From Methylococcales bacterium (lineage in GTDB: Bacteria > Pseudomonadota > Gammaproteobacteria > Methylococcales > Methylomonadaceae): DNA of 39,445 nt. Made by a program: the position numbers and the translations under genes. This document shows positions 3,135-34,090 of this stretch, in pieces. Each line of letters starts with the position of its first letter. Position 1 is the first letter of the stretch. The notes under the pieces were generated by a model that was not told where the DNA came from, made no database searches, and was given only the letters and a program-made list of their open reading frames with translations. The DNA lies in assembly GCA_026399095.1 (NCBI GenBank), contig JAPLRP010000062.1:1-39445 (forward strand), in the 5' to 3' direction.

Positions 3135-4763
3135 CTAGTGGCTCAACATTAAAGTACTTTCCAAAAACAAGGCATACAACGCGACTTTTGCACGACTAGC
3201 GCCTACATAAAGCCATTCAGGATGGCTTGAGGCCTGGTTATCAAGACCGACCAGAATAATAACATCGGCTTCCAACCCTTTAAATCCCTGTATCGCGCCC
3301 ACCCTAACGCAACCGGCAACGGTTTTATGCATTTGCGTAGAGATCGTAATCTCAGATAAGCCTATTGACCACGTCGATTTTTGATTGGTGTGACGATAAG
3401 GCGACAAGACAACAATACGTTCTGGAGCAATGCGTTCACGATTGATCAAATTACGCAGCAACTGCTTTAGTTGCTCACCCATCAACGTAAAATTAAGACT
3501 GTATTGAACTTCAGGAAGCAAGCCCTCCTCTATTCTAAAAGCATTGGGCAGACTCACTTGCCCCCATTTAGCGGCTTGCTCACCAATAGGTCGCGTATTT
3601 CTGAGATTGGTATCCAATACAAAAGGCGCGGCATTAAAAGGAGGAACCCAGTCATTATCATCTTGATAGATGGCTTGCTGCCTATCAAAAAGACAATACC
3701 AACTAAAATCCTGCCGACCCAAAACCTCTAAAGCAACCCACCAAGTTGACGTAAAGTCTGCACCTTCATCAACAATCAGCGTATCAAAACCCTCGCCCAG
3801 CAACTCAACCGCATTAATCAACAACTCCGGGCAGTCATCACGAAAGAATTTAATACGTTGTTGTAAATCTTCTGGTACTTGAAATGACAAACCGGCCGCT
3901 AAAACACGCGTACGTACCAATTCATGAAAATTCATAACGGTAACAGCCGGCACATCGGCCAAAATATCAGATAAATATTCGGCTAGATTGCGGTTAAAAC
4001 AGGTCAGTAATACCGATTTCCCTAAAGCCGCATGCTCACGCGCCAAACAAATGGCTAAAAGCGTTTTACCGGAACCGGCGCAACCTTCAACCAATAATCG
4101 TGACTGCGTGCGTAACATCCGCAAAATGGTAATTTGTTGCTCGGTGGCCTGCTGTAAATCAGCCAGTGTTTCATCTAATTGCACCACCATAGGCACTAAT
4201 AAATGACAATCCGGGGCCAATATTTCTTTGACTGCCTTTTGCTGAGAAGCACTCCAGGCTAAGGGTGTGGCCGTTACAGCTTTGAATAATTGAAGCAGAT
4301 ATTTTTCCGGCTTGGCCAAGGCCTCTCTATCGAAAAGAAAAGCACGAGTTGCCGCTTCTGTACCCGGCATAGGCCCTGACCAATGAACATCGGGAAACCA
4401 AACTGCATGCGTAAGTGTTAACGCTTCAAAAGCTGATTTCCCCAAACGCTGAATCAATTTATCCGTTAAGGCAAAACGATTCCGGCGTGCTTGCGAAAAA
4501 GGTGATTGCTTCATACTCCGACCAGAGGCATAAAACCATTCGCCCTCACGCACATCAACCGCACCGGCTTTAATCTCAAAAACGACCAAACCGTAGTAGG
4601 GATGAAAAACAACCAAGTCGGCTTCACCAATAACCTCCCCTTCACCGCGCAGCAAGCGCCACTCGACCGTTGGAAAAACCTGCCAGGGAGAAGGTAAGGT
4701 TTTCAATGCCGTGAATACTCGGTTTTCGGCACGCGCACCGATGTCTTCAATAGGAGTTAACAT
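3135..4763 (-). CDS. NERD-domain nuclease fused to superfamily 1 helicase
   Basis: The 542-residue protein starts with a NERD domain (about 10-110: GEADLVVFHPYYGLVVFEIK with the Asp and Glu-x-Lys of the nuclease-like core). A UvrD/RecB-type helicase follows, with Walker A GCAGSGKT (about 230), Walker B LIVDEGADF, motif V 'AIQGFKGLEADVII' and motif VI 'LYVGASRAKVALY'. Such proteins are predicted to process foreign or damaged DNA and are common in defence islands. It is the last gene of the long minus-strand block. A 132-bp AT-rich gap separates it from the 212-residue membrane protein, so a separate transcript is possible. Ribosome site before the ATG is weak. Function in this setting is inferred. 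Confidence 0.88.
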   Translation of the reverse strand: MLTPIEDIGARAENRVFTALKTLPSPWQVFPTVEWRLLRGEGEVIGEADLVVFHPYYGLVVFEIKAGAVDVREGEWFYASGRSMKQSPFSQARRNRFALTDKLIQRLGKSAFEALTLTHAVWFPDVHWSGPMPGTEAATRAFLFDREALAKPEKYLLQLFKAVTATPLAWSASQQKAVKEILAPDCHLLVPMVVQLDETLADLQQATEQQITILRMLRTQSRLLVEGCAGSGKTLLAICLAREHAALGKSVLLTCFNRNLAEYLSDILADVPAVTVMNFHELVRTRVLAAGLSFQVPEDLQQRIKFFRDDCPELLINAVELLGEGFDTLIVDEGADFTSTWWVALEVLGRQDFSWYCLFDRQQAIYQDDNDWVPPFNAAPFVLDTNLRNTRPIGEQAAKWGQVSLPNAFRIEEGLLPEVQYSLNFTLMGEQLKQLLRNLINRERIAPERIVVLSPYRHTNQKSTWSIGLSEITISTQMHKTVAGCVRVGAIQGFKGLEADVIILVGLDNQASSHPEWLYVGASRAKVALYALFLESTLMLSH

Positions 4764-4895
4764 TATTTTTTAGAATTATATTTTATGAATTGCATGAAGA
4801 AAATAAATCGAACATAAATGCATTTCTAATCTTAAAAATAATGCAGTTTACAAAAAATCAAATAAAGACATAAATTAATTGCAACAATTTTTATA

Positions 4896-5534
4896 TCATT
4901 TGAGTAGCAACTTTATTCTTTGAACTGCAATCTCTACTTTTAGTGAACCGTTCTCAATTTGACTAACTATATTTTCAATTTTTAAATCTGAGATCAGGTC
5001 TTTCTCAATAGCAAGCAATAATAATTGGTGTAATTCAGAAAGATGTAACTCATTAAGTCCATTGCTCTTTAAATCTGTAATGCGTGCTTCTAATTGCTTT
5101 ATTACCTCATTGCGTTTTTTAACCTTATTTCCAGATTTAAATAACTTAGAAATACCATATCCAGCTGCTCCTGCTGCTACAGTGGCACCAACAACCCAAC
5201 CAACAGGAGTTGTTGTTACAAAAACACCACCTAAGACACTTGCTAAGGATGTGGAGCCTAATAAAGTTGATGCGCCTGCCGCGCTCGCCAAAGTACCTGC
5301 TGCTGCGACTCCAAAGGCACCGCCGCCAATAGTGGAAAGTGCTTCAGCTGATATTTCTATTTTATCTTTACCTTTTAAGTCATCCATAACTTGATTGTAT
5401 TCATAGACTTTTTCAAACTCAACGTCAATGAATGTCGGCTCATCAATTTCATGAAGCATAGATGATATTTCATGTTGCTCCAGGACTGTGATATCTTTTG
5501 ATGACACAGAAATTTCTTTAAAATCGTCTTTCAT
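4896..5534 (-). CDS. Membrane protein with Gly/Ala-rich hydrophobic hairpin, downstream partner of the dynamin-like gene
   Basis: 212 residues, family not recognised. The first 60 are acidic and soluble. About 62-132 form a long Gly/Ala/Val-rich hydrophobic stretch (GGGAFGVAAAGTLASAAGAS ... PVGWVVGATVAAGAAGYGI), like a membrane-inserting hairpin of bacteriocin or glycine-zipper type. Then comes a Lys-rich turn (SGNKVKKRNE) and a C-terminal helical part with coiled-coil spacing (VIKQLEARITDLKSNGLNEL). It follows the 805-codon GTPase frame by 33 bp on the same strand. Together with the 265-residue single-anchor protein before that GTPase, it may recruit GTPases to the inner membrane. That role is inference. 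Confidence 0.65.
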   Translation of the reverse strand: MKDDFKEISVSSKDITVLEQHEISSMLHEIDEPTFIDVEFEKVYEYNQVMDDLKGKDKIEISAEALSTIGGGAFGVAAAGTLASAAGASTLLGSTSLASVLGGVFVTTTPVGWVVGATVAAGAAGYGISKLFKSGNKVKKRNEVIKQLEARITDLKSNGLNELHLSELHQLLLLAIEKDLISDLKIENIVSQIENGSLKVEIAVQRIKLLLK

Positions 5535-5567
5535 AACTGCACCTAATGATATGTAAATATTATTGAA

Positions 5568-7913
5568 TTAATGCACTGTATCTAAGGCGATTCTTAATTG
5601 TTTAAGTGTGTCACTTACTTCAGTATCAAATTTAAATGCTTGTAAGTTAATTGGTAACTCTTTCAATAATTCCGTATTACCTTCACGCCATTCAACGCCA
5701 ACAACACCGGTCCAATAACCCTCAGTGTCTACATCCAGAAAATTGTCACGCAGATTATCTAATTCTTGCTGACAAAATACGCCAAAGCCTGAAGCCTCAA
5801 AAATACCATAAATTAAATAATGTTCTAATGCTTTAAGATCTGCTTCCACCTCTAAAATCACTGTATTTTGCGGATTAGGGGCTGGTAAAGATTTACCAAC
5901 CTCATTAACAACGCTTTCTGCTGCTTGAATAGCGATATTAGCAAAAATATTTGTACCAATAATTGCTTTTGCTACATTTACAGAACTACCTAATACTTCT
6001 TTACGTTTTTTAGGGTTAGTTATTAAATCAACGCCATGATTAGCATATTGGCATAGGCGTTCTAAAGCGGGTTCACCACCATTATAGTAATTATCGATTA
6101 TTTCAATATCAGGTCCAATTTTTTTACGCGTTTCAGATCGTGTTTCGCTACCAACAGCACCTCTAATCAAAAGCTCCGCCACTGGGCGGGCAAATCTTAA
6201 AAATAGTGTGTTTAGGCTATGCTCTAAAAGCTTTACATATAGTAAATCATCATCAATCAATTTAATTTTTACACGCGGACTATTCCATAATTGTTGATCT
6301 AACTCTTTTACTAACGCTAATACTTCTTGCTGTAATTCTAAAGCTAAGTTGCTGGCAAGCGATTTCAACATCTTACGAACATCACTGTGCAACTTTTCAC
6401 GCCATGTATAGTTAGCTTTAATAGAGTCAAAGACGGGATTGCTAATACTATCAAAAATTTGTTGTCTTGCATCTAATTGACGCGCCGGCAAAGTTGCCAT
6501 TTTATCTTTGACTAAATCTACATAACGCTCTTTAAATAATTGACGGTTTCTTATTGAAGTTTCACTGCCTTCTTTAAATCGATTATTAACATCAGCGCTT
6601 GTTTTTTTCCATCGTTTAGCCCACCACTCACTAAATTCAATTTGTTGTTGGCTTTCTTGGGCGCGCTTAGCTTGCTCTGGATCTTCAGGGTAAACGTCAG
6701 CGACGGTTTTATAGATTTCTTGGGCTGTTTTGAGGATATCGGTAATCATACCGTTACAACGTTTTTTTAATAACTCGGTACGTTCATGATCAAGATAATT
6801 TTGAATACGTTGTTGTAACTCAAGAATCCCTGTGGCATCTTTTAGTTCATTCGGGGAGGTTGTACCTGTTAGTACACACATTTTGTCTTGAATTTGTTCT
6901 AAAGAGCCAACAAATGGCAAATCAAAACCTTGTAATACTAAGTGAGCACCTGCAGAGCCACTGACAATTCTATGTTCTGGAATTTCAAACACTGCCCATT
7001 TACTTAATAATTGCTGCCAATTTTCTTGTAATGCTTCTTTAGATGGCTGTAAGTCGATTTGCCCCCAAAATACAAATAATTTATCAGCTAGTTTTAAATA
7101 AGGATCCCCGTCTGCACCGAATTTTATTAAATCTTGCTCATGGGATTTTAAATCAATATCTCTTCTTTGTACTAAAATAATAGCATCACAATCTGCTAAC
7201 ATTTCTTTTGATTCTTCAATGTGTTTAGCTAGTCCCGAATCTAAACCAGGGACATCATAAAAAACCACACCGTCAACCGCCGCTAATTGTGATGTATAAA
7301 GACGTGCTTCTTGCATGGCGTGTGCATAACGCTCGTCTGCCACATAGCGACTTAAGTTGGATTTAATTTCTTCCAAACGACTAAAGTTATAAGTTTTTTT
7401 ACCTTCATCAATAATTTCTTGTAAGGTGTTGTTATTTGAGTCCATTACATTTAGATCATTTTCTGCTTTCTGTGCCGCACCCTTATCTGCACTTTGTAAC
7501 TGGTCTCGTAAATCTGCTTGATAAGCACGATATTGCTCTGCACTTTTCGGTAAAGTTTCTAAGCGTTGTTCATTTTGAGCTTGTACTGAATAAATTTGTG
7601 TAGTGGTGAAGGTACAGCGAGCAGGTTTTGCTGGTAATAAATCTGAGCCCAACCAAGCGTTAACGAATGTACTTTTACCGGCTTTTTCTAAACCGACCAC
7701 GGCAATGCGAAACTCACCATTTTGTAAGCGGCGCATGAGTTTTTCAGCAGGTTCTCCAGCTTTTTGTAAAATAGTTTTTTGTTCTTGAGTAATATTCAAG
7801 TGATTTACAGAAGCTAAATTCAGCAAATCTAAAGCATGCCGTCGTACATTGAGTGCTGTTTTTAGTTGATTAGCATATAAGGTTGAAGCCGTTTTCCAAT
7901 CCATCGTAGTCAT
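5568..7913 (-). CDS. Dynamin-like large GTPase (LeoA-type)
   Basis: About 781 residues from the ATG at 7913. The longer in-frame start at 7985 would overlap the upstream gene by 50 bp and adds an unlikely leader, though no strong Shine-Dalgarno marks either. The GTPase domain has G1 GLEKAGKST (about 74-82), the T of G2 after it, G3 DVPGLDSG (about 220) and G4 GQID in place of N/TKxD. Long helical segments follow to the C-terminus, as in bacterial dynamins. In this family GTP hydrolysis drives membrane binding and remodelling; LeoA and the Eleos defence system are known relatives. It sits between two membrane-anchor proteins and near a second large GTPase, and bacterial dynamins often work in such pairs. 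Confidence 0.85.
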   Translation of the reverse strand: MTTMDWKTASTLYANQLKTALNVRRHALDLLNLASVNHLNITQEQKTILQKAGEPAEKLMRRLQNGEFRIAVVGLEKAGKSTFVNAWLGSDLLPAKPARCTFTTTQIYSVQAQNEQRLETLPKSAEQYRAYQADLRDQLQSADKGAAQKAENDLNVMDSNNNTLQEIIDEGKKTYNFSRLEEIKSNLSRYVADERYAHAMQEARLYTSQLAAVDGVVFYDVPGLDSGLAKHIEESKEMLADCDAIILVQRRDIDLKSHEQDLIKFGADGDPYLKLADKLFVFWGQIDLQPSKEALQENWQQLLSKWAVFEIPEHRIVSGSAGAHLVLQGFDLPFVGSLEQIQDKMCVLTGTTSPNELKDATGILELQQRIQNYLDHERTELLKKRCNGMITDILKTAQEIYKTVADVYPEDPEQAKRAQESQQQIEFSEWWAKRWKKTSADVNNRFKEGSETSIRNRQLFKERYVDLVKDKMATLPARQLDARQQIFDSISNPVFDSIKANYTWREKLHSDVRKMLKSLASNLALELQQEVLALVKELDQQLWNSPRVKIKLIDDDLLYVKLLEHSLNTLFLRFARPVAELLIRGAVGSETRSETRKKIGPDIEIIDNYYNGGEPALERLCQYANHGVDLITNPKKRKEVLGSSVNVAKAIIGTNIFANIAIQAAESVVNEVGKSLPAPNPQNTVILEVEADLKALEHYLIYGIFEASGFGVFCQQELDNLRDNFLDVDTEGYWTGVVGVEWREGNTELLKELPINLQAFKFDTEVSDTLKQLRIALDTVH

Positions 7914-7935
7914 AAATTTTAATAAATAATAGAGG

Positions 7936-8733
7936 TTAAATATCGTAAAAATCTTTAGTAGATAAAGCTGATTGTAGTTTGGCAATTTTTTTAATTTTAA
8001 TTTCTGAGTTGTTACTTATTTGATCACTGATGTTTGATCTAATACGTTGGGTAACAATGTCTTTATCGCTTGATGATAAAACAAGATAGACTAATACAGA
8101 ATTCTCTGTTTTATAATCAATAGGTTCATCAGAGCATTTTACGTTATCGGCAATTTTTTGACCTGCTGAATCATGCTCCTTAAAACAATACGCGCGTTTT
8201 GCATAGTTAATTAATTTACTTGCGTCATCTTTATTAAGTGTTTGTCCGTTCTTTAGGCTCATTGCTTGATTGGATGGGATTATCAATAACAAACAATATC
8301 TAATTGCATCAACTTTTTTTGTTGAATTTTTCGTTTTTGTATAAATTTGACCTACTGCAATTCCGATTAAGATTCCCATTGCAATTCCAATTCCGATTAA
8401 AACTGATTGGCTCGGAGTTACTAGGACGTCTTGATTTGCGACAAGTGCTTCACCAATTGTTTTGGAATTTATAACTGAATCTTCTTTAAGCATGCTTTTA
8501 TCTCTGATCTTAAGATTAACTTCATTTTGCACTTCGCTTAGGAAGTTAATAAAATCGAAGTTGTCGTACCATTCATCATCATTTTCAACTTCTTTTATGT
8601 ATTCATTTAACCCTTTGATAAATTCTTTAAAGGATTGACTATTACCCAACTGCACTATTATCTCATCGGGTTTTAATTTTATGGCCTCATCAATTAGCTC
8701 TACTCGCTGAAGAAGAGCACCAATGTTACTCAT
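7936..8733 (-). CDS. Single-pass membrane protein between two large GTPases
   Basis: 265 residues, unknown family. About 100 soluble, mostly helical N-terminal residues precede one strong transmembrane helix (SVLIGIGIAMGILIGIAVGQ) followed by TKTKNSTKK, a basic stop-transfer. A soluble C-terminal part of about 115 residues follows with two Cys and many Lys (YAKRAYCFKEHDSAGQKIAD). By the positive-inside rule the C-terminal part would be cytoplasmic. Its ATG overlaps the stop of the 779-residue GTPase by four bases (ATGA), so the two are translationally coupled and probably equimolar partners. No signal peptide. Role as a membrane anchor or sensor for the GTPases is an inference from order and coupling. 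Confidence 0.7.
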   Translation of the reverse strand: MSNIGALLQRVELIDEAIKLKPDEIIVQLGNSQSFKEFIKGLNEYIKEVENDDEWYDNFDFINFLSEVQNEVNLKIRDKSMLKEDSVINSKTIGEALVANQDVLVTPSQSVLIGIGIAMGILIGIAVGQIYTKTKNSTKKVDAIRYCLLLIIPSNQAMSLKNGQTLNKDDASKLINYAKRAYCFKEHDSAGQKIADNVKCSDEPIDYKTENSVLVYLVLSSSDKDIVTQRIRSNISDQISNNSEIKIKKIAKLQSALSTKDFYDI

Positions 8734-11066
8734 AAAGAGTCCCAGTTATAGATTAACTTGTTTGTGAGTTTATCTAATTGTTGAGTTCTTTCAAGTAAAG
8801 GCTCCCAAAGGATTTTTACTTTTTCATAATCATCAATATTTTGTTGATACGCTTGATTAAGTTTGTTGTTAAAATCTTCTAATACGCTTTCTTGTTCTTT
8901 AACGACATTGGCATTTAAATCAACAAAATATTGATATAACATTTCTTGAAAAGGCATTAATAAGGAATCTAATTGACCAATTAATTCAAAAGCAATGTCA
9001 TTGTGTAGCGTTTGATGGCTAGGGAATTTTTTATAAGAAATGATTTTTGTAAAAAGCCATAAAAAACCATAGTGCACTTCTCTGGTGGAGTTTTGCGCAT
9101 GGGTTTTTAAGTCAAAAAAATAAATTTCTGGGGTGTGTAAATTATTTAATATTGAATTATTGATAGAGAGATTCCATTCAGGTGCAATAGTCTTTATATT
9201 ATTCCGTAAATAATCTAAATAATGTTTCATCAATAAATCTATCGTGTCATGGATACGTTTATTTTCTAGACTGCTATAGATGGTAATTACATTATGGACA
9301 ACTTTATTAATAGATTCTAAAAAATGATTTAATGTTTGGGTAACATTAAGATCAGAGTTTCCATTTAATAACTGTTGCTCTTCTTTCAGTTTTATTTTTG
9401 TATAAAAATGCAGATACTCATGACATTCGTTAGCTAACTCCAGTTGTAAATGATTAGGTAAATTTTCGACTGTTGTATTTTTAAAATCACGATGCCCCGC
9501 AATAAGTGATTGCTTTACCGCAGTAAGTACACCCAGAGCTTGAGTTTTTATGTTGGCATTCCACGAAAATAAGGGAGTTAATTTTTCTTCAGTGAGCGTG
9601 CCTTGATAAATTTTTGTTTCAAATAAAGCTTCAGAAAAAATTTCTAAGGCATTGCTAATGGATCCAGGATTTTTTTTTAACTCTTCTTTTAGGTATTCAA
9701 TGGGCTCAATTAAACTAGAGTTGGCTTGTGCTATAAACTCACGTAGCTCACTATTTTGTCTAATTAATAACTCTCGCGCTTTAGCATATGTTTCTTCTGA
9801 ACTGTTCAACTCACTGTAACAAGTTCTTGATAATTCACCAATAGCATAGCCAACTTCTTTCTCAAAGTTTTGAACGATAGTCGGAATGACTAAGGTAGGA
9901 AAATGTATTTGAATATGATTATCTAATTGTTTAAAAAACTCGGCGCCGTAACTATTGTTCCAAACGACTTCATTGATGCGTTGAAAATCGTGGTCTTTCC
10001 ATGAACTAATTCTACGTGGTAAGTCATCTAGTAATTCTTCAGGAATTAAACTATTAAAATGTTTATCTAATTCGTCAGCAGAATGTATACGGTCATTTAC
10101 TGATTTAATAAGTTGAGCATGTAAAGCGGGTAAAGAACTTAACGGACTAAAAGTTAAATTTTCTAATGTATCTCGATGCTCTGGGAGTTCTTTATATAGA
10201 ATGTCGGTGATTTCGGTTTTAACTTTGTCTATGTGCTCATCTCTTCGACGATCGGCTTCGTGATCAGATAAAAACGCATCAATACGATTTAAGATAAACA
10301 TCATACGAGCGGGTGAACCGCCCATGTGTTTTATTTGCTGTAATACTTGTTGTACTAATTCTATTCGGCGATTTTCATCCGTTTCTTCCATATTGTAAGC
10401 AACTAAACACAATGCATCACGACAGCTTTTAATGACCTGGGCATTAGTATTGTCTTGATGATTTCGCAAGCCTGGCAAATCCATTAATTTGAATTGAGTG
10501 CTTTTAGGAAGGTTCGAGAGTGCTAATAATTCAGGATTGTTAAAACATGCTAGGGGATAAGTCAGCTCAATATGTGGAGACGCTAATTGACCAATATGCT
10601 TATTTGTATTAAAGCTATCCATAACTGTAGTTAATTTATTACGGATTTCACTATCAGATAGATCGTGCCATTCATCGCATTCCCAAAGCGCCCCATCAGT
10701 TTTATGGATATTTAATATTCGTTTATTGTCAGGACTATTATGGATATAAACTACGCCCGCACTCATTTCTTGGGTCATTCGTGGCATTAAATCTGCACCA
10801 CATAATAAATTAACAATTGTACTTTTACCGCTACTGGTTGTACCGGTAGTGGCTAAAATAAGTGTAGGGCTTTGAAGATCCTTATGCAGCCGTTCAATGG
10901 CAAACCTAAATTTATCATTTAACTGATTAAAATGCGCTATATCAAGATGTGGATGTTCTTTAGCCGTATTACAAATATTTTCGATAATGGTTGACCAATG
11001 TGCCTCTATTAATTTTGAGTGATCAAAAAGATGGTTAAAAATATTGGTCTTAGTTGGAAGCGTCAT
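8730..11066 (-). CDS. Second dynamin-like large GTPase
   Basis: 778 residues from the ATG at 11066 (a TTG one codon upstream is also possible; AAGGAT lies 8 bp before). G1 is GTTSSGKST (about 75-83), followed by ADLMPRMTQEMSAG as switch I. G3 is MDLPGLRNHQD (about 197) and G4 LNRID (about 262), so the GTP site is complete. The remaining 500 residues are helical, as in dynamin stalks, with no transmembrane segment. It is not a close duplicate of the 781-residue GTPase: motifs differ and no long identities are seen. Translationally coupled to the single-pass membrane protein after it. The likely role is membrane-linked defence or vesicle work, inferred from family. Confidence 0.83.
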   Translation of the reverse strand: MTLPTKTNIFNHLFDHSKLIEAHWSTIIENICNTAKEHPHLDIAHFNQLNDKFRFAIERLHKDLQSPTLILATTGTTSSGKSTIVNLLCGADLMPRMTQEMSAGVVYIHNSPDNKRILNIHKTDGALWECDEWHDLSDSEIRNKLTTVMDSFNTNKHIGQLASPHIELTYPLACFNNPELLALSNLPKSTQFKLMDLPGLRNHQDNTNAQVIKSCRDALCLVAYNMEETDENRRIELVQQVLQQIKHMGGSPARMMFILNRIDAFLSDHEADRRRDEHIDKVKTEITDILYKELPEHRDTLENLTFSPLSSLPALHAQLIKSVNDRIHSADELDKHFNSLIPEELLDDLPRRISSWKDHDFQRINEVVWNNSYGAEFFKQLDNHIQIHFPTLVIPTIVQNFEKEVGYAIGELSRTCYSELNSSEETYAKARELLIRQNSELREFIAQANSSLIEPIEYLKEELKKNPGSISNALEIFSEALFETKIYQGTLTEEKLTPLFSWNANIKTQALGVLTAVKQSLIAGHRDFKNTTVENLPNHLQLELANECHEYLHFYTKIKLKEEQQLLNGNSDLNVTQTLNHFLESINKVVHNVITIYSSLENKRIHDTIDLLMKHYLDYLRNNIKTIAPEWNLSINNSILNNLHTPEIYFFDLKTHAQNSTREVHYGFLWLFTKIISYKKFPSHQTLHNDIAFELIGQLDSLLMPFQEMLYQYFVDLNANVVKEQESVLEDFNNKLNQAYQQNIDDYEKVKILWEPLLERTQQLDKLTNKLIYNWDSL

Positions 11067-11136
11067 CAATGAATCCTTTTAAATTTTTTATTGCTCTGTT
11101 TAATAAGCGAGTATGAATATGTTGGTAGATAAATTT

Positions 11137-12696
11137 TTAATATGTTGTTTTAATAAATTCAGCAATCTTATCGCTATTATCAATAATAAATTGTCCTGTA
11201 TTACTAATTTGCTTCCGCCATTCACGCCAATAGCTTTTGTCTTTTTGATTATTCAAACATCTTAAATACCGGGCCCGTTGAGCATCATCCAGTAGTTCAT
11301 GAATTAATGGCATTAAACCATCATCAATATTGTAAGTTGGTTTTTCAGGTGCAAGGCAAACTGGCACAATGTGCCCTAAGGGTATACTTAAATCTTGTGA
11401 AATTGCTTCGCAGACATCTCGTATACTCTGTGCTTTTATAGATTGGGGATCTTGAATGTTATACGGAGGCAACCATTCTCTGAAGGGTCTTAATCGATCA
11501 ATTTGCGTAGCAACGGCAATAATTACCGGCAGGGTTCTATTCTTTCTATGTAATTGAAACTCCTGACGTAATTTTTGAAGTTGTTTTGCATCTTCTTCTC
11601 TCGCTGCGTGTGAGGCATTGCATACAATCAAGACAATATCGATTTCTTCCCATGCCTTTTTTAATTGTGAGGGTGCTGCTTCATGCTCTAAACCACCGTA
11701 ACCCGCACTATCAAGAATAGTCGCAACTTCTAATCCGTCTCGTTCCAATTTAAAAGGTGTTATTTGCGAGGTAGTCGGTAATACACCTTCGGCTGTTTTA
11801 ATTTCACCAAATAATTTATTAATTAAAGTAGATTTACCACTACTAACTTGCCCTAAGACCAGTATTCGTAAAGGTTCGATGGATTGTTCATAAGCTTTTA
11901 TATTTTTTATGTCTTTTTTGGATGCATCACTTAATGTTTCAGTGGGTGCAATATCATCTAAAGTAATTTGACCGCTATATAGCTGAATAGCGTAATAGCC
12001 AAGTTTACTGATGTAAGCACTGAATAGGCGTTGCAATACTTCTTCTCGAATTAAATTAAATCCTTTTTCGATTAATAAGCTACGTGCACCACCTAGTGCA
12101 GCACCTGGCCAATTAAAAAAACCATTTACTACAGAAACTAAAGACTTTACTTTATTGGCTTTATTAACATAGTCTCTAGTTAAAAGCAGATCACCAACTT
12201 GTACAGCATGGCTACCGGGGATTTTATCTAAAACATCTCGTTGTAAGTCCGCACAAACTAAACTAATTAATTTTAGTAAATAAGGAATCGGGAATTCTAA
12301 AATAGGATATTTTGACTTAGCGTTAAAATGACTTGCGACCAATAGCAATACTTCGTTAGTTAACTTGAAGGCTTTATCAGGATTGGTTAATAAATCCATT
12401 TTTGCAGGGTAGTTTTTAGCGAATTTCTCTAATTCTGCCCAAGCATCTAGCGCATCATCTGACCAATTAGGATTTGGGTTAATATCAATGGATTTAACGA
12501 TTAATGGTATTTTTTGATGACCGCGCCATGTCGTTAAGGCATAAATAAGAGCCGTATTTGCAGAGAGAACCCCTGCACCTTGATAAAGCCAATCTTGTAG
12601 CCATAAAAAGTACAGGCCGAAACCAACCAATGCAATTAAGGGTATTAAAAATAATGATCCTAAAATAATGCCATGGAAATTAAATAGTGATCGCAT
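11137..12696 (-). CDS. Membrane-anchored GTPase with N-terminal helices
   Basis: About 519 residues from the ATG at 12696. The N-terminus has two hydrophobic helices (GIILGSLFLIPLIALVGFGL, then LYQGAGVLSANTALIYALTT). Around 80-250 lies a helical region of unknown family, with a second weak hydrophobic part near SVVNGFFNWPGAALGGARSL. The GTPase domain starts near 275 with G1 GQVSSGKST, G2 TT, G3 DSAGYGG and G4 TQID (TQIDRL). This resembles the YfjP/50S-ribosome-binding-type GTPase fold (TRAFAC class) rather than dynamins. It sits 11 bp after the 391-residue GTPase and before the large dynamin-like gene. A membrane-tethered switch working with the soluble GTPases is the simplest reading. Confidence 0.75.
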   Translation of the reverse strand: MRSLFNFHGIILGSLFLIPLIALVGFGLYFLWLQDWLYQGAGVLSANTALIYALTTWRGHQKIPLIVKSIDINPNPNWSDDALDAWAELEKFAKNYPAKMDLLTNPDKAFKLTNEVLLLVASHFNAKSKYPILEFPIPYLLKLISLVCADLQRDVLDKIPGSHAVQVGDLLLTRDYVNKANKVKSLVSVVNGFFNWPGAALGGARSLLIEKGFNLIREEVLQRLFSAYISKLGYYAIQLYSGQITLDDIAPTETLSDASKKDIKNIKAYEQSIEPLRILVLGQVSSGKSTLINKLFGEIKTAEGVLPTTSQITPFKLERDGLEVATILDSAGYGGLEHEAAPSQLKKAWEEIDIVLIVCNASHAAREEDAKQLQKLRQEFQLHRKNRTLPVIIAVATQIDRLRPFREWLPPYNIQDPQSIKAQSIRDVCEAISQDLSIPLGHIVPVCLAPEKPTYNIDDGLMPLIHELLDDAQRARYLRCLNNQKDKSYWREWRKQISNTGQFIIDNSDKIAEFIKTTY

Positions 12697-12707
12697 CAAA
12701 TTGTGCC

Positions 12708-13883
12708 CTATTTCTTGAGTAGTTGACGGGCGTCAGAAAATGCAGTTGCATAAGTTTCCTTTATCATTTTTCTGTCAGGTAAAGCACCCCGTTTGACACT
12801 GTACAGATAGACACAAAAGGCTTTGCCCAAAGCATAAGTCATCGCACCTGAATAGGCCCCCGATACTGCCCAGCCATAAACAGGCACAAGCCCTAGTAAT
12901 TCTCTCCCTAGTAAGCCCAATCCGATACTCGTGCCGAAAAGTGTAATAAATTCTGTATAAAGCTGACGTGTTAATGTAAGTTCATAAATTGACGCAATAC
13001 TATGAAATAACTTTGCTTGAGTGGCACAAACCAAGGGAATACCAACCACAGGAACAGCCCCCACACCCATGTTTAAAAGAGAATAGCCTGTAATGTGTGG
13101 GTGAGCTTGCTCAGCGTGATAATCTAGTAGTTCTTTATGTTTTTTTGATCCTCTTAATAAATTAATTAGGCCTTTGGGTAATACTTCTTCAATCGTGTTC
13201 CATAATTCTTCTAGCCCGTAACTAGAGGGAGTGTAACCATCTTCTGGCAAAGTAAAATCAACCGGCACGAAGTGAACATTCTCGCCTAATGGCTTAAACC
13301 AATCCCGCTGATGTAATAAAACTCGAGTTAAATCATGGGGTATTTCTGGTGGTAATGGAGACTGTTGATAGGGATAGGGCTGAATATGCTCGAATTCTGT
13401 ATTTGGATAGCACTCGTGTAATGAGGTTTGAATAACGACAATAGGCCATTTTGGATGTTGTTCATGTATTTTAAAAACAGCTTTAACCACTTCGGATTGA
13501 TTCATATCAGAAGCTCGTAGCACTACGATTAATAAATGAGCATTATTGGCGCACCATTTAAGGTCTTCGGTAGGATCATAATTGGCCTCACCTAGACCTC
13601 TTGTATCTAAAAATCGTATTATTGGGTGAGAGGACGAGGGGAAATCATAAAGTTGTGATGTCTTTGTGCAGGGGATAAAACCATTACCTATTTGCGCGTT
13701 ATCGTTACCCGTAATTTGACGAATTAAAGATGTTTTTCCCGATTGAGTTTTACCAAGCAACCAGAAAACAGGTGTTGGCAATTGCTTTTTAATATCTTCA
13801 ATTTTAGATTCTAGACCCTCCGCTTTTGGCGTAAAAATAGCATCGCCTAATCCCTGCCAAGTCCAGTTGTTGAAAATCGCCAT
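12708..13883 (-). CDS. GTPase with DUF697-like hydrophobic C-terminal domain
   Basis: 391 residues. The N-terminal G domain has G1 GKTQSGKTS (about 44-52), G2 TKT, G3 DTRGLGE (about 92) and, at the place of G4, QTSLHE, in which the canonical Asp is replaced by Glu and the Asn/Lys is absent. From about 265 onward there is a Gly-rich hydrophobic domain (LLNMGVGAVPVVGIPLVCAT ... GLLGRELLGLVPVYGWAVSG), which matches the layout of YcjX/DUF697-type GTPases and suggests membrane association. It is the first of the four GTPase genes. The altered G4 may mean loose nucleotide preference. Family naming beyond 'DUF697-like' is not secure. Confidence 0.75.
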   Translation of the reverse strand: MAIFNNWTWQGLGDAIFTPKAEGLESKIEDIKKQLPTPVFWLLGKTQSGKTSLIRQITGNDNAQIGNGFIPCTKTSQLYDFPSSSHPIIRFLDTRGLGEANYDPTEDLKWCANNAHLLIVVLRASDMNQSEVVKAVFKIHEQHPKWPIVVIQTSLHECYPNTEFEHIQPYPYQQSPLPPEIPHDLTRVLLHQRDWFKPLGENVHFVPVDFTLPEDGYTPSSYGLEELWNTIEEVLPKGLINLLRGSKKHKELLDYHAEQAHPHITGYSLLNMGVGAVPVVGIPLVCATQAKLFHSIASIYELTLTRQLYTEFITLFGTSIGLGLLGRELLGLVPVYGWAVSGAYSGAMTYALGKAFCVYLYSVKRGALPDRKMIKETYATAFSDARQLLKK

Positions 13884-13976
13884 ATTTATCCATTAAAAAA
13901 ATTAAATCAAAAAGTATTGAATCTTTAACCCAGATTTGTTTATTAATACCGTTGGTGTGTCTATTAAGAACTCTAT

Positions 13977-14222
13977 CTAATCAGTCTTTTTGATAAACAA
14001 CTGATACCAAATATGTAAAGAAATACCGACTAAGGGAACCAAAGCAACTGAGAGTTCTGCCGGTGAGCAATTACCACTACAAGCATCTTGAACTTTAAAA
14101 AAGACAACCAGTGAGATGATTAAAGAAATAAGTACCCAACCTAACTTCAATAGTCTTTTGAAAGCGCGAGGATTAAGCGCACCTATAAGCAAGATAACAA
14201 CAATAGCGACAATATAAATCAT
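13977..14222 (-). CDS. Small membrane protein (81 aa)
   Basis: Three hydrophobic helices are visible: MIYIVAIVVILLIGAL at the very N-terminus, LGWVLISLIISLVVFF in the middle and LSVALVPLVGISLHIW near the end. A short loop with two Cys (DACSGNC) lies between the second and third. The two Cys could form a disulfide if the loop is periplasmic. Unknown family. It precedes the first GTPase gene by 93 bp on the same strand, so it may be the first gene of that operon. A promoter is not obvious in the 14223-14400 stretch upstream. Confidence 0.55.
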   Translation of the reverse strand: MIYIVAIVVILLIGALNPRAFKRLLKLGWVLISLIISLVVFFKVQDACSGNCSPAELSVALVPLVGISLHIWYQLFIKKTD

Positions 14223-14409
14223 GGCCGACCCTATCCTTATTGAAAGTTATTACCCGCCTCGGTAAACAGATAGGCAGACTCATTTTTTAAATTAACGTAT
14301 CATGACTTATTGCTTTGCATATAGCCAGAAGAATTGGTTTGATATTTGCAATTATTATTTGATTAAAATTGAAGCTTTATAACTGTCAATAAGCGACAAC
14401 AAAGTTAAC

Positions 14410-14520
14410 CTACTCGCCCCTACCCAAATATTCATTTAAGCCTTTATCAATATCTACCTGCAACTCTTCCGAACTGATGATCCGATTATGCGGAATCCAA
14501 TAGCGCACAATCGGCAGTAT
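14410..14520 (-). pseudogene. Duplicated 3' end of the WYL regulator gene
   Basis: These 111 bp match the 3' end of the intact WYL gene (15510-15620) at about 91 percent by eye, including the stop codon. They encode the same last 36 residues with a few changes (ILPIVRYWIPHNRIISSEEL ... LNEYLGRGE). Beyond 14520 the similarity stops sharply. This is therefore a truncated second copy, in the same orientation, and it forms a direct repeat around the 267-residue membrane-protein gene. Up to 14657 I see only short disrupted frames. Confidence 0.85.
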
Positions 14521-14657
14521 TAATCGTCCCATAAGTTTTCGCAACCAACCGCCTAAGTATATTTTTCCGCATACCAGGTATCGGGCAATCTAAAAAAGCT
14601 TTTCACCAGTTCTATTTTTTGCTGGAACTAATTTAGTTTTTAGAGTATTTAACCGTT

Positions 14658-15461
14658 TTATTTAAATTTAGAAAACATAGAGGTCTTGTCTTTTTTATCT
14701 AAAATACTATAAGCCATAGATACACAAAGACTCATTACTTCTTTTTCTTTAAATATACTAGAAAATGCATTAGCTCCAGCAATTAACGAGGCCCCTAGAA
14801 TAATACAACCAGCTATTGGTAATATTGGAATGCCAACAGTAAAAAACACTAAATTGGTCCATATACCTAGACCAAAACCTGATATTAATAAAAAAGCTTT
14901 GCCAAACAATAACAGTCCCATTAAAGGCCCCATGACTTTAAATACAATACTAAAAACTTGTATAGGAGTTTTTTTATTACCGTCCAATAACCCATCTATA
15001 GCATCTAATACTTTTTGCTCTTTTTTAGTGACACCTAATATAGAAATAAAACGACTTTTCCAAACTTTAAAAACGCCTTTAAAATAATTCAAAGTTTCCG
15101 CTTTATCTTCAGAAACAACACCACTACGAATTATACGTTCAAGATTAGTATTTAACTCCATTCTAAGAAGTTGAATATGATTTTCGCCATCAATAGTTAT
15201 TGGAATATAATCACTTGTGCCGGCCTCAAAGGTAAAAGAACCAGAACCAAAATTCATTGCATTATTAACTAAATCGAAGTACTCCTTACCGAATGCTTTC
15301 TGTAACGCTACAAGTGCAGTAGCGCCTTTTTGTATGCTTTCAGTGGCTTTAGAAAGCTGTCCTGTTCGCTCTGAACCAGATATAACACCCCAAATTCTTT
15401 GAGCAACGGGTTGTCCAACTTCCTTAACGAGTAATGCAAGCAATGGTGTTACCATAAGCAT
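14658..15461 (-). CDS. Two-helix membrane protein within a repeat-flanked cassette
   Basis: 267 residues, family not recognised. The first 160 are mostly helical and soluble, with KATESIQKGATALVALQKAF and a central FGSGSFTFEAGTSDYIPITI strand region. Two long hydrophobic helices follow (VMGPLMGLLLFGKAFLLISG and LVFFTVGIPILPIAGCIILG). A short tail follows, rich in Lys and Met. The gene is more AT-rich than its WYL neighbour. It lies 48 bp after the WYL stop on the same strand and is bordered on both sides by copies of the WYL 3' end, which suggests insertion or exchange as a unit. The start at 15461 lacks a clear ribosome site; one of the nearby Met codons could serve. It may be an effector or membrane partner in the block (inference). 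Confidence 0.6.
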   Translation of the reverse strand: MLMVTPLLALLVKEVGQPVAQRIWGVISGSERTGQLSKATESIQKGATALVALQKAFGKEYFDLVNNAMNFGSGSFTFEAGTSDYIPITIDGENHIQLLRMELNTNLERIIRSGVVSEDKAETLNYFKGVFKVWKSRFISILGVTKKEQKVLDAIDGLLDGNKKTPIQVFSIVFKVMGPLMGLLLFGKAFLLISGFGLGIWTNLVFFTVGIPILPIAGCIILGASLIAGANAFSSIFKEKEVMSLCVSMAYSILDKKDKTSMFSKFK

Positions 15462-15509
15462 TAATAACAGACTTAAATACTAAGTCTACGTCAAATATAT
15501 TACAATCAC

Positions 15510-16412
15510 CTATTCGCCCCTACCCAAGTATTCATTTAAACCTTTATCAATTTCTACCTGTAATTCTTCAGGACTGATGATCCGAATATGCGGAATCCAA
15601 TAGCGCACAATCGGCAGTATCTGATTGGGATGGCCAATTTTTGCCGAGATGATCAAACCACCATCTTCCAGTTCTTTTTCTATCACTTGATTGGCGATTA
15701 ATTTACGACGTTTAAAATAACCGGCAACTTCGGCGCGTACTTTTAAAACGACTTCTTGTTTGGCATCCGATAACCATATACCGTCATCTTCGGCTAATTG
15801 ATTATCAATGTTGGCATCCCAGACAAAGAAGCTATCCAAGGTTTCTAAGTTAGATAATTTAGTGATGCTGAATGACTTTAGCTTTTCACCATCTTGAGCG
15901 ACCAAATACCAGATGCCTTTATGGTTAACCAATTTATAGGGGGAAAGTGATTGATACGTCTTTAAGCCCTCGGCTTTCAGGTAACTAAATGACACCTGAC
16001 GATGCGCGATAATGGCTTTTTCTAGGTCTTTGAACAAGCCTCCCTTGTCGCCTATGTTTTCATAATGGTGGCCTTTAACCAATAAAGCGGATTGCACGCG
16101 TGAATCGAAAATATCCCGTAAAAAATCATTGGCCAAAGAAGGAAACAAACCCTTCACACCGGCCAAACCCGCAAAACGGTGTATATCTTTTATGCTGATT
16201 TTGCCTAGAAAAGTTGGGTCAAGTTGGTATCGGCCCTCAATTTTTTCCAAAGGAAGATAGGCAAAGCGCTCATTAAGATCGCGTTGGATGGTTCTAAGGT
16301 TTACCCCAAACTCCTCGGCCAAGGCATTAGGTTCAAGCTTTTCACCTTGGTTTAGTTTGACCAGCATCTGTGCGAGACGATAAACCAGTGTGTCATGATG
16401 ATTGTTGGCCAT
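15510..16412 (-). CDS. WYL-domain transcriptional regulator
   Basis: 300 residues. The N-terminal helix-turn-helix (about 5-60: 'LAQMLVKLNQGEKLEPNALAEEFGVNLRTIQRDLNERF') is followed by a WYL domain (about 135-205: 'AIIAHRQVSFSYLKAEGLKTY ... SPYKLVNHKGIWYLVAQD') and a C-terminal WCX-type extension. This is the build of BrxR/CapW-type regulators, which sense a ligand and control phage-defence operons. AAGGAA is well placed before the ATG. Upstream lies a dyad-containing promoter element (16443-16477) also found before two other genes in the window, so the protein probably controls itself and those. It heads the co-directional block that includes the GTPases. Confidence 0.92.
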   Translation of the reverse strand: MANNHHDTLVYRLAQMLVKLNQGEKLEPNALAEEFGVNLRTIQRDLNERFAYLPLEKIEGRYQLDPTFLGKISIKDIHRFAGLAGVKGLFPSLANDFLRDIFDSRVQSALLVKGHHYENIGDKGGLFKDLEKAIIAHRQVSFSYLKAEGLKTYQSLSPYKLVNHKGIWYLVAQDGEKLKSFSITKLSNLETLDSFFVWDANIDNQLAEDDGIWLSDAKQEVVLKVRAEVAGYFKRRKLIANQVIEKELEDGGLIISAKIGHPNQILPIVRYWIPHIRIISPEELQVEIDKGLNEYLGRGE

Positions 16413-16442: not shown

Positions 16443-16477
16443 ATTATGCTTTTACCGGATGACAGGTGATGTCGTTT
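16443..16477 (-). promoter_or_regulatory. WYL gene promoter with shared 18-bp operator
   Basis: On the minus strand the 18-mer AAACGACATCACCTGTCA (16460-16477) contains the dyad GACA-N5-TGTC. Exactly 11 bp further comes CATAAT (16443-16448), a good -10, about 30 bp before the WYL start codon. No -35 consensus is present at 16-18 bp; the dyad covers that place, so an activator or repressor should act here. The same element with the same spacing recurs at 18465-18499 and 18556-18590. Confidence 0.6.
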
Positions 16478-16568: not shown

Positions 16569-16844
16569 TTAGGTGCCGATAAGAAGAAATATCATAAACC
16601 CATACACAGGTAATAAAACAAAAGCGCCCCAAGAATCCTTATACGCAGTTGCCACCAGTAACACACCACCGACTAACAAACTTAAAGATAAGAAACTAAA
16701 AAAACCATCCATTGTTTTTGCAGTTAAATGCTTCAAGTAATTAGGGTAACGCGGATTATCAAATGACCTTTTTCTTCTCCACAAGGCAATCAAAACACTC
16801 GCCGCAATAAGGTACCAGCCAATCAATTGATTATTAAATTCCAT
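16569..16844 (-). CDS. Small membrane protein (91 aa)
   Basis: Three hydrophobic helices: LIGWYLIAASVLIALW near the start, then a basic cytoplasmic loop (RRKRSFDNPRYPNYLKHLTAK), then FFSFLSLSLLVGGVLLVATA and GAFVLLPVYGFMIFLLIGT at the end. Unknown family. It follows the 231-residue gene by 36 bp on the same strand and may be cotranscribed with it and the DUF4236 gene. No ribosome-binding site stands out. Nothing indicates a function beyond membrane location. Confidence 0.55.
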   Translation of the reverse strand: MEFNNQLIGWYLIAASVLIALWRRKRSFDNPRYPNYLKHLTAKTMDGFFSFLSLSLLVGGVLLVATAYKDSWGAFVLLPVYGFMIFLLIGT

Positions 16845-18020: not shown

Positions 18021-18431
18021 TTATTTTTTTATCGTGTACTGCTCTTGTTTCCATAATCGATTTCCGTAGGAGTCGGTAGGAATCATCTTATTACCTTCTA
18101 CCCGATAATTAGGTTGATTCCATTTTCGATTACCAAAAGAATCTGTGGGTATAATTTTATCACCCTCTGTTTGGTAATGGGTTTGTTGCCTTTTCTCATT
18201 GCCAAAGGCATCGGTCGGTATTGTTTTATTACCTTCAGTGCGATAGTGCGTTTGATCCCAGTTCTGATTACCGGATGCATCTGTAGGGATGGATTTATTT
18301 CCTTCAACTTGATAGTGGGTTTCATTCCATTTGCGATTACCGAAGGCATCCGTGGGGATTATCTGTTCAGCCGCCAAGCATGAACCCGACAAAAATAGTG
18401 TAATCAACAGCAAGAGTGATTTTGTTTTCAT
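18021..18431 (-). CDS. Secreted protein made of five 23-residue repeats
   Basis: 136 residues. A signal peptide (MKTKSLLLLITLFLSGSCLA, cut before AEQ) is followed by five tandem units of the form 'IPTDxxGNxxWxxxxYxxEGNK', 23 residues each (69 bp). The last unit ends in a short basic tail. Conserved positions are Ile-Pro-Thr-Asp, Gly-Asn, Trp/Arg, Tyr and Glu-Gly-Asn/Asp-Lys. No enzyme motif is present. The repeat resembles short surface or cell-wall repeat proteins, where each unit forms a beta hairpin. GGAGG lies before the ATG. Its promoter carries the shared 18-bp operator (18482-18499). Function unknown. Confidence 0.75.
   Translation of the reverse strand: MKTKSLLLLITLFLSGSCLAAEQIIPTDAFGNRKWNETHYQVEGNKSIPTDASGNQNWDQTHYRTEGNKTIPTDAFGNEKRQQTHYQTEGDKIIPTDSFGNRKWNQPNYRVEGNKMIPTDSYGNRLWKQEQYTIKK
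18070..18366 (-). repeat. 69-bp tandem coding repeat (about 4-5 units)
   Basis: Within the secreted-protein gene, a 69-bp unit recurs with drift of roughly a quarter of positions. The best kept word encodes Ile-Pro-Thr-Asp, followed by Gly-Asn. Number of units in the family or between strains could change by slippage or recombination. The limits given are approximate. Confidence 0.75.
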
Positions 18432-18464: not shown

Positions 18465-18499
18465 ATTATGTATCAGCGCTGTGACAGGTGATGTCGTTT
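18465..18499 (-). promoter_or_regulatory. Shared operator and -10 upstream of the repeat-protein gene
   Basis: On the minus strand AAACGACATCACCTGTCA (18482-18499) is identical over 18 bp to the element before the WYL gene. It is followed, again after exactly 11 bp, by CATAAT (18465-18470). The start codon at 18431 is about 34 bp further. Confidence 0.6.
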
Positions 18500-18555: not shown

Positions 18556-18590
18556 AAACGACATGACCTGTCATTCCCATTAGGCATCAT
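18556..18590 (+). promoter_or_regulatory. Shared operator and -10 upstream of the 18631 gene
   Basis: On the plus strand AAACGACATGACCTGTCA (18556-18573) differs from the other two copies by one base, and 11 bp later comes CATCAT (18585-18590). With the copy at 18482-18499 it forms a divergent pair in the 200-bp gap between the genes at 18431 and 18631. Confidence 0.55.
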
Positions 18591-18630: not shown

Positions 18631-18792
18631 ATGTTCTGGGGATTTATTTTATTGGTGGGACTGGGCGTCGTTTTTACAAAACTGGGGGCGTATTCGGTGA
18701 TGGTGGCCATGCTTTCCAGTGCTTTAAAGCTGGTCGCAGTTGTTGCTTTCTGCGCGTTTGTTTGGTTTTTTGTTAGAAAAAAACTGTCTTAA
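18631..18792 (+). CDS. Small two-helix membrane protein (53 aa)
   Basis: The ORF begins with ATG at 18631 after GGAGAG (18620-18625). It encodes 53 residues with two hydrophobic helices, FWGFILLVGLGVVFTKLGAY and LVAVVAFCAFVWFF, and a basic C-terminal tail (VRKKLS). It is too short for standard gene callers. The start signal, hydrophobic pattern and the operator-bearing promoter in front support it. The outer-membrane protein gene follows eight bases after its stop (start at 18800) or 25 bases (start at 18818), so the two probably share one transcript. Unknown family. Confidence 0.6.
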   Translation: MFWGFILLVGLGVVFTKLGAYSVMVAMLSSALKLVAVVAFCAFVWFFVRKKLS

Positions 18793-18799
18793 TCACTTA

Positions 18800-22688: not shown

Positions 22689-22888
22689 TCAGTATTAGCC
22701 ATGCTTAAAACTAACACTTTTAATAAGTCGCAAAATTTATTATTTTAGCGTATTCAGATTAAAGTTCAATTAATTTAATAGTCACAAAAAAAAACAATCC
22801 ATAAATATTTAGGCCTATTATCAACAATAACCATCTTCGCTATAGTTGACTTGCAGTAAAAACCTATCAACTTAATAAGGATTAATTT

Positions 22889-23062
22889 ATGAGTCAATTA
22901 ACTAAAGATATTCTGATCGGAATATTGTTTATAACGGGCCTGGTTGGTTATATTTCAGGCGAATTTATTATTTCATCCACTCTGTTTTTTGCCTCTGCTA
23001 TTGCCAGCAACGTGAACGTCAATCGTAAACGCACTAAAGCTGGTCAATTTAGATGGAATTAA
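22889..23062 (+). CDS. Small membrane protein (57 aa)
   Basis: ATG at 22889 after AAGGAT (22877-22882), stop at 23062. The 57-residue product has a hydrophobic N-terminal two-thirds (ILIGILFITGLVGYISGEFI then STLFFASAIAS) and a polar basic tail (NVNVNRKRTKAGQFRWN). Two short helices are likely. It is followed within 15 bases by a strong terminator, which supports it as a real single gene. Unknown family. Confidence 0.6.
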   Translation: MSQLTKDILIGILFITGLVGYISGEFIISSTLFFASAIASNVNVNRKRTKAGQFRWN

Positions 23063-23075
23063 TGACACAAGCATT

Positions 23076-24709: not shown

Positions 24710-24714
24710 AGGTT

Positions 24715-26085: not shown

Positions 26086-26092
26086 TAACCAA

Positions 26093-34083: not shown

Positions 34084-34090
34084 AACGACC

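Follow-up and report, generated by a model that had tools for sequence, protein, structure and literature searches.

Dynamin-type defence and control by WYL regulators are each already known. Eleos, which combines LeoBC with LeoA, reportedly has a defence role. LeoABC of enterotoxigenic Escherichia coli (ETEC) comprises paired, island-borne dynamins whose deletion leaves about half of the normal vesicle content (PMC4159319), Bacillus subtilis DynA delays phage lysis (PMC8844932), repression of immune operons by CapW/BrxR regulators lasts until single-stranded DNA (ssDNA) is bound (PMC13373217), CapW binds palindromes (PMC9122588) and BrxR sites feature a 5-bp spacer (PMC9122601, PMC9122589). 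Here, we analyzed a block in which two pairs of GTPase genes stand behind a WYL regulator. It lies at 3135-16412 of a 39,445-nucleotide stretch (contig JAPLRP010000062.1, positions 1 to 39,445; termed the window) from a Methylococcales bacterium with a genome assembly of 2.77 Mb. With a probability of about 0.55, the block is one version of a modular defence regulon that acts at the membrane under WYL control in Methylobacter and its relatives; among the readings considered, defence is the best supported.

Gene content of the block

Ten co-directional minus-strand open reading frames (ORFs) fill 3135-16412; a WYL regulator and a NERD-helicase lie at the two ends, and four of the proteins encoded in between are P-loop GTPases. 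The components and the adjoining palindrome are as follows.

3135..4763, minus strand: NERD-UvrD helicase (Pfam NERD and UvrD_C_2), an optional gene
4896..5534, minus strand: GA212, a Gly/Ala hairpin protein with likeness to the LeoBC C-terminal region (PADLOC 5.6e-9), an optional gene
5568..7913, minus strand: DynB, a conserved dynamin-like GTPase (Pfam Dynamin_N 4.5e-17; ORF 5568-7985)
7936..8733, minus strand: TM265, with a helical N-terminal part, one hydrophobic helix and a C-terminal alpha/beta part (weak model); hypervariable
8730..11066, minus strand: DynA, a dynamin-like GTPase (Pfam Dynamin_N 4.6e-11; ORF 8730-11069), C-terminal half hypervariable relative to locus L043
11137..12696, minus strand: GTP520, with a hydrophobic N terminus (read from the sequence), a middle region and a C-terminal GTPase domain (Pfam MMR_HSR1 and Dynamin_N; ORF 11137-12699)
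12708..13883, minus strand: GTP391, a GTPase (Pfam MMR_HSR1) with a DUF697-like C-terminal helical region (sub-threshold)
13977..14222, minus strand: TM81, a small hydrophobic protein with a 60% homologue in L010/L045
14658..15461, minus strand: TM267, a hydrophobic protein without a Pfam match
15510..16412, minus strand: WYL regulator of BrxR/CapW-type architecture (Pfam WYL and WCX, DeoR-type helix-turn-helix (HTH))
16458..16476, minus strand: operator palindrome, about 60 bp before the WYL start codon

The original prediction, a model's reading of the letters, had proposed this ten-gene run with four P-loop GTPases, two of them dynamin-sized, a WYL regulator at its head and a NERD-helicase at its end. 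Pfam bears out each of these points: all four GTPases are matched, Dynamin_N is found in both dynamins, and regulator and helicase carry the domains listed above. The GTPase described as DUF697-like holds up as an MMR_HSR1 GTPase, its DUF697 match itself remaining below threshold. The proposed ATGA coupling of TM265 to a GTPase corresponds to a 4-bp overlap with DynA (8730-8733).

Both dynamins contain a Dynamin_N domain with intact P-loop and DxPG motifs and are encoded close together, as expected for a dynamin-like pair. Better start positions are 7913 for DynB, 11066 for DynA and 12696 for GTP520. Gaps within the core are short (GTP391-GTP520, 11 bp; GTP520-DynA, 70 bp; TM265-DynB, 22 bp; DynB-GA212, 33 bp), with wider ones between TM267 and TM81 (435 bp) and between GA212 and the helicase (132 bp). 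A scan for promoter-like sites (29 versus 54.3 in shuffles) and terminator-like sites (13 versus 12.1) was uninformative. No reverse transcriptase beside the NERD-helicase, as in defence-associated reverse transcriptase (DRT) systems with an RTasNERD-helicase, was found among the 20 of 30 window ORFs searched against Pfam and the ten block ORFs searched against PADLOC.

Palindrome and cargo of the WYL clade

The palindrome at the WYL gene spans 19 bp (AACGACAnnACCTGTCRTT) around a GACA-N5-TGTC core. Upstream DNA of four of five aligned WYL genes shares an AACGACA-TCACC-TGTCATT element; in the fifth (L159), it lies 5 bases inside the first possible start. The pattern AACGACANNACCTGTCRTT matched the window four times at up to three mismatches, versus 0.07 matches expected in shuffles, and one of these four is the reverse strand of the perfect palindrome. 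Of four sites at up to two mismatches in the window's genome, three are located in this island. Only close matches are meaningful because hits at up to three mismatches in that genome (8+15) do not exceed those in a backwards control (13+16). In a scan of all 237 host-family genomes, the backwards control was also matched in many genomes at up to one mismatch, so only perfect sites were weighed. They number 17, comprising 13 at island genes, two elsewhere (L213, L214) and two unexamined.

A profile of the WYL clade identified 31 places in 28 of the 237 family genomes, of which 29 were examined. The core marks the start of the WYL gene in 27 of these 29 loci, that is, it falls within 250 bp upstream of the first ORF start or within the first 90 bases after it. 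In the two others, only 3 bp of upstream sequence is present (L234) or the site follows the gene (L236). The density of the core in the compared loci is 0.049 per kb, WYL-start sites included. In L159 and L044, the site is located at the WYL gene. L161, a dynamin cassette without an adjacent WYL gene, carries a site about 50 bp before DynA; in the same genome (G617), the WYL gene is located elsewhere, heading an operon of GTP391 and GTP520 (L215). The WYL clade has a conserved palindrome at its own gene that recurs before other island genes and, in a single genome, also precedes a dynamin cassette standing alone. The protein itself has the HTH, WYL and WCX domains of the BrxR/CapW architecture according to Pfam; among solved structures, phmmer matched only PafBC (6sj9), weakly (0.0045).

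Downstream genes were readable in 24 of the 29 WYL loci. Six loci carry GTPases (the window, L045, L044, L215, L159 and L229), and in L229 (8962-16923), WYL gene and palindrome head three Dynamin_N proteins of 564, 511 and 719 residues; a 492-residue protein without a family match is also encoded there. In L221 (8956-17010), the same WYL clade and palindrome are directly followed by type I-F Cas1, Cas2/3, Cas8f and Cas5f genes (Cas3f, E = 0). L221 belongs to a methanotroph genome, and control of I-F CRISPR by a WYL switch merits separate study. The PADLOC candidate PDC-M09A (3.5e-113) is encoded in L235, which is identical in position to L216, together with a protein resembling the uracil-DNA glycosylase superfamily (sub-threshold). 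A 514-536-residue family with a sub-threshold Gly-zipper follows the WYL gene in five loci (L226, L236, L223, L227 and L231, truncated in the last); further on in L226 lies an IetA-like AAA ATPase (PADLOC 5.3e-29). Nine loci, L215 among them, encode a 165-residue family or GA212-like hairpin proteins, and longer GA212 relatives occur behind WYL genes in others. Cargo behind the WYL gene is exchanged between loci. These data agree with the proposal that the regulator is of a defence type, and the palindrome at the CRISPR locus of a relative suggests a little-known, infection-triggered membrane defence of interchangeable parts.

Distribution of the GTPase pairs

The closest relatives are found in Methylobacter and other Methylococcaceae. 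Three other genomes of the genus (G034, G008 and G027) keep the order GTP391, GTP520, DynA, partner and DynB, and because these five core genes recur in the same order, the set occurs together beyond chance. The accessory genes vary: G034 has GA212 without the helicase, and G008 the helicase without GA212, its contig stopping about 1.2 kb before GTP391 so that TM267 and an adjacent WYL gene are unreadable there. In G027, WYL, GTP391, GTP520 and helicase are 79-86% identical to the window's, and the dynamin cassette is a different one (26-33%) whose partner gene yielded no BLAST match to TM265. TM81 was matched in G034, not in G027, and TM267 in neither. Of the whole set put forward in the original prediction, the core order is thus upheld, and TM267, TM81, GA212 and the NERD-helicase are not constant members.

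We confirmed at least 542 GTP391 relatives in a contig scan and used the best 80 for locus counts. GTP520 was present in the same locus in 72 of these 80, the remaining eight being partly cut by contig ends or single-labelled, and a DynA or DynB relative was near GTP391 in seven. GTP391 occurs in ten of 369 sampled genomes of the class (E<=1e-10; the window's own included). Its profile matched 84 of the 237 family genomes at E<=1e-20, of which 76 strong matches were kept and eight weak partial ones dropped. Cassette-type DynB was detected in 14 of the 237 and is accompanied by DynA in 12 of them, cut by a contig end in G592. Both GTP391 (11/14 cassette-type genomes versus 65/223 others; p=3e-4) and the WYL clade (11/14 versus 17/223; p=2.4e-9) are associated with cassette-type DynB in Fisher tests, which ignore phylogeny and count the near-identical loci of G571 and G573 separately.

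Adjacent modules were found in eight of the 14 cassette-type genomes, in three arrangements. The GTPase pair is located upstream of the dynamins in four (the window's genome G000, G034, G008 and G027), downstream in three (G571, G573 and G570) and convergent in one (G606). DynA-partner-DynB without an adjoining GTPase pair is seen in L159, L160, L161 and L162. The view is cut by contig ends in L163 and L165, the latter retaining 71 residues of a GTP520-like protein. In L166, which lies outside the family, DynB and DynA point away from each other.

We conclude that the block consists of separable modules: an IRG-like pair (GTP391-GTP520; IRG, immunity-related GTPase), a dynamin pair (DynA-TM-DynB) and optional genes. 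A single four-GTPase machine, as originally proposed, was rejected in that form because of this separability, the pairs being apart more often than together. The expectation that the genes stay together holds for the five core genes and fails for the widespread GTPase pair, which mostly lacks dynamins in the best 80 loci. The two pairs are best described as co-regulated modules rather than one machine. A serious competing explanation, somewhat short of even odds, goes further: two or three independent defence systems would share one regulator and island, with GTP391-GTP520, DynA-TM-DynB and the NERD-helicase never touching the same target. Each GTPase module is indeed found alone and the cargo behind the same WYL clade is exchangeable, but the modules adjoin each other in the eight genomes above, and three close relatives keep the order GTP391, GTP520, DynA and DynB.

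Core dynamin paralogue and a housekeeping alternative

Of the 35 genomes in the genus, 31 have a DynB match, usually scoring about 900 bits; in the family as a whole, the figure is 87 of 237. All seven non-cassette loci that we opened contain solitary DynB genes without DynA and partner genes, and this core copy may serve housekeeping membrane work. Its prevalence is the main argument for an alternative in which the GTPases shape methanotroph intracytoplasmic membranes or handle envelope stress, the block being an accessory copy. Methanotrophs and Nitrosomonas build internal membranes, and GTP391 relatives come mostly from these organisms among the best 80 of at least 542, a sample biased to near relatives. 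We nevertheless regard this alternative as unlikely for the block. Only 14 of 237 genomes have a cassette-type DynB, and a 20-sequence tree places it apart from the core type (support 94/90, just below the tool's threshold), with the cassette copies forming two lineages, one nearer the core copies. WYL gene and palindrome are common to CRISPR-Cas I-F and PDC-M09A loci; TM265 and, in comparison with L043, the DynA C-terminal half are hypervariable; and GTP391 relatives also reside on Vibrio megaplasmids (five Vibrio records matched; GTP520 adjoining in one of three examined).

Uneven evolution within the block

Compared with L043, the ratio of nonsynonymous to synonymous proportions (pN/pS) is 0.10 for DynB, 0.13 for GTP391, 0.19 for the helicase and 0.21 for GTP520. 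It reaches 0.70 for TM265 and 0.62-0.64 for DynA residues 421-780, versus 0.18 for DynA residues 1-300. For DynB, GTP391, GTP520, TM265 and DynA residues 421-780, pS is 0.52-0.63. Overall values of 0.10-0.37 for GTP391, GTP520, DynA and DynB indicate purifying selection. In the L043 comparison, TM265 and the DynA C-terminal half evolve three to seven times faster at the protein level than GTP391, GTP520 and DynB. Because third-position identity at identical residues is similar across genes (61-66% for DynA, TM265, DynB, GTP391 and GTP520; 51% for the helicase), accelerated replacement is favored over an older import, an argument limited by pS values of 0.52-0.71 throughout, near saturation. 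GA212 shows a pN/pS of 0.45 relative to L045. The fast-evolving TM265 and DynA C-terminal half are likely the site of a specificity contest, and their joint conservation and divergence would be compatible with contacts between the TM265 C-terminal part and the DynA C-terminal half.

Defence models among neighbors and opposing evidence

To assess the surroundings, PADLOC models were compared for the neighbors of dynamin cassettes (80 of 100, with 20 window genes excluded), of core dynamins as a control (73 of 73) and of lone GTPase pairs (96 of 120, with L049 and L056 excluded). At E<=1e-10, 33 models were matched among the 80 cassette neighbors, 32 among the 96 neighbors of lone GTPase pairs and seven among the 73 control neighbors.

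Several observations weigh against a defence regulon. This enrichment is a modest signal: the leading models among cassette neighbors are the WYL and NERD types of the block itself, and one protein can match many PADLOC models. A site within 300 bp before DynA was present in one of ten dynamin cassettes checked (L161), the upstream region of L163 being unreadable, and the cargo in L225, L230 and L233 could not be named. Sixty-five family genomes have GTP391 without cassette-type DynB. Two of the 14 cassette-type genomes show DynB only: in G606, the DynB ORF is preceded by an in-frame stop and has no adjoining DynA, and in G570 a DynB fragment sits at a contig end. The Nitrosomonas GTP391-GTP520 pair is found among recurring flanking genes (L100, L113-L116, L118 and L119), suggesting vertical inheritance. 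Relative to L045, the DynA C-terminal half shows no acceleration (0.10-0.22), and that of TM265 is restricted to the N-terminal half and transmembrane region (residues 1-100, 0.64; C-terminal part, 0.10). The TM265 model is weak (predicted local distance difference test score (pLDDT) 67.9), without a PDB match and with a best Foldseek E value of 0.12. Finally, solitary DynB relatives occur in almost every genome of the genus, so these dynamins may plausibly have originated in housekeeping; the cassette type is the rare form, as described above.

Island extent and mobile-element setting

The operator-marked island extends beyond the block to about 18431, or to 19975 if a divergent outer-membrane protein gene is included. 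The additional features are listed below.

16569..16844, minus strand: orf91, a small hydrophobic protein with relatives near WYL genes or operators in L201, L202, L204, L205, L208 and L209
16881..17576, minus strand: orf231, matching only the C-terminal region of 1004-1069-residue Sel1-repeat proteins in relatives
18021..18431, minus strand: orf136, a repeat protein with a signal-like N terminus
18480..18498, minus strand: operator palindrome with two mismatches, about 50 bp upstream of orf136
18557..18575, plus strand: perfect operator palindrome between orf136 and the outer-membrane protein gene
18740..19975, plus strand: Legionella_OMP-type outer-membrane protein (PF05150), divergent

Relatives of orf91 were not found in L044, L045 or L237. 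The Sel1-repeat proteins related to orf231 adjoin the palindrome in L209 (1423-4614; Sel1 assigned by Pfam), L204 and L207. Homologues of orf136 adjoin the operator in eight other genomes (L200, L201, L205, L206, L207, L209, L211 and L212), as do homologues of the outer-membrane protein in L044 and L237 (39% and 44%). It is conceivable that a surface protein is switched together with defence genes.

The window contig also encodes the conjugation proteins TraG_N, TraH and TraI_2 (Pfam). Within 20977-39261, a umuDC-like pair (by sequence reading) is followed by the conjugation genes SLT, TraG_N, TraH and TraI_2 and a coupling-protein-like ORF. An integrative conjugative element probably carries the block. 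The block is not tied to this particular element because tblastn (E<=1e-8) detected none of the tra genes in the compared loci, whose extent is about 20 kb at most around each block. On plasmids, DynA and DynB each had one partial hit, in Nostoc (45% of the query covered, 5e-23) and Photobacterium (34%, 2e-7), respectively. None of 62 candidate stretches from viral contigs contained a DynB relative.

Proposed mechanism and implications

By analogy to CapW/BrxR, the WYL protein would bind the palindrome and keep the set repressed. On meeting a nucleic-acid signal, for instance ssDNA produced by infection or DNA damage, it would release the set. From what is known of the protein families, DynA and DynB may form a heterotypic dynamin pair for which TM265 serves as anchor or guide, GTP391-GTP520 may assemble on the inner membrane like IRG-type GTPases, and GA212 may insert its hairpin into the membrane; the NERD-helicase, where present, would attack DNA. 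As a result, the membrane could be sealed locally, lysis could be delayed or the infected cell could be sacrificed. The membrane-remodelling mode suggested in the original prediction fits the presence of two dynamins alongside two GTPases that appear to have membrane parts. A co-regulated outer-membrane protein could additionally change the phage receptor surface.

A bolder version, which we advance tentatively and consider rather doubtful as a whole, sees the island as the bacterial equivalent of interferon-inducible GTPase immunity. A WYL switch responding to infection would turn on IRG-like and dynamin pairs whose membrane partner evolves under conflict, the GTPases would assemble on the infected membrane, and the same switch would drive CRISPR-Cas I-F in sister genomes. 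If the defence regulon is real, a regulated, modular, membrane-acting branch would be added to dynamin-type defence. The WYL clade and its 19-bp palindrome provide a sequence handle for finding further regulon members, CRISPR-Cas included, and joint immune action of bacterial IRG-like GTPases and dynamins, like that of vertebrate IRG and guanylate-binding proteins (GBPs), becomes testable.

Family assignment and comparison with known systems

The best PDB matches of DynB are Slr0869 (4.9e-10) and 5owv (8.5e-8), which we take to be SynDLP and the Campylobacter jejuni dynamin-like protein (DLP), respectively. Those of DynA are weak (1e-4 and up) and mixed, including an IRG and DNM1L. For GTP391, the nearest solved relatives are IRGs (8e-6, profile A8), and Foldseek also ranks IRGs first (4.9e-7) for its structural model, which is of moderate quality (pLDDT 76.9; predicted TM-score (pTM) 0.58). 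The likeness is claimed for the G domain only because the Foldseek TM-scores are just 0.31-0.37 (root-mean-square deviation >16). Membership of the IRG family was rejected, with Pfam IIGP scores of 12.7 and 13 bits against a gathering threshold of 24 and no full-length fold match. GTP520 resembles many GTPases, with Der as its top match. In alignments to TM265, the partner genes from the second cassette type (L044, L066, L162 and L165) reach just 14-17% and are therefore only putative homologues, although the alignment used to model TM265 contained them.

In searches against defence models, Eleos included, no model in PADLOC-DB or NCBIfam (as of the library dates) covered the complete set, in line with the original expectation that no described system does. 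A literature search weighted to open-access sources, without bioRxiv, found no published description of this gene set or of the GTP391-GTP520 pair, despite the latter's at least 542 GTP391 relatives. Eleos/LeoABC membership of DynA and DynB was rejected: the PADLOC LeoA/LeoBC models left both unmatched at E values up to 0.1, matching only the G domains of GTP391 and GTP520 and the C-terminal region of GA212, and no LeoA entry was among the PDB profile matches of DynA and DynB (E up to 0.01). These negatives, together with the links of the shared regulator to antiviral genes, make a LeoABC-like role quite improbable, in which the dynamins would promote outer-membrane vesicle release or secretion and the divergent outer-membrane protein would be a co-regulated client. 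Such a role would draw on the paired island dynamins and vesicle phenotype of LeoABC (PMC4159319), on the resemblance of GA212 to the LeoBC C-terminal region and on outer-membrane protein genes that follow operator sites in the window and in L044 and L237.

Among eukaryotic systems, the resemblance to vertebrate IRGs is limited to the G domain of GTP391. As in Campylobacter Cj-DLP1/2, Nostoc BDLP, SynDLP and B. subtilis DynA, the Dynamin_N proteins are encoded close together; unlike in known bacterial dynamin pairs, a partner gene splits the pair, which is sporadic and WYL-headed. The regulator resembles BrxR/CapW in its HTH-WYL-WCX architecture, its position at the head of defence operons and an own-gene palindrome with a 5-bp spacer, but it belongs to a separate WYL clade, here in methanotrophs, with predicted half-sites of about 7 bp versus 10-11 bp for BrxR. 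Like Eleos/LeoABC, the block is island-borne and encodes paired dynamin-like GTPases, one of them membrane-anchored, alongside a GA212 protein similar to the LeoBC C-terminal region. It differs from Eleos in the hypervariable partner between the dynamins, the second GTPase pair and the WYL gene with its palindrome at the head.

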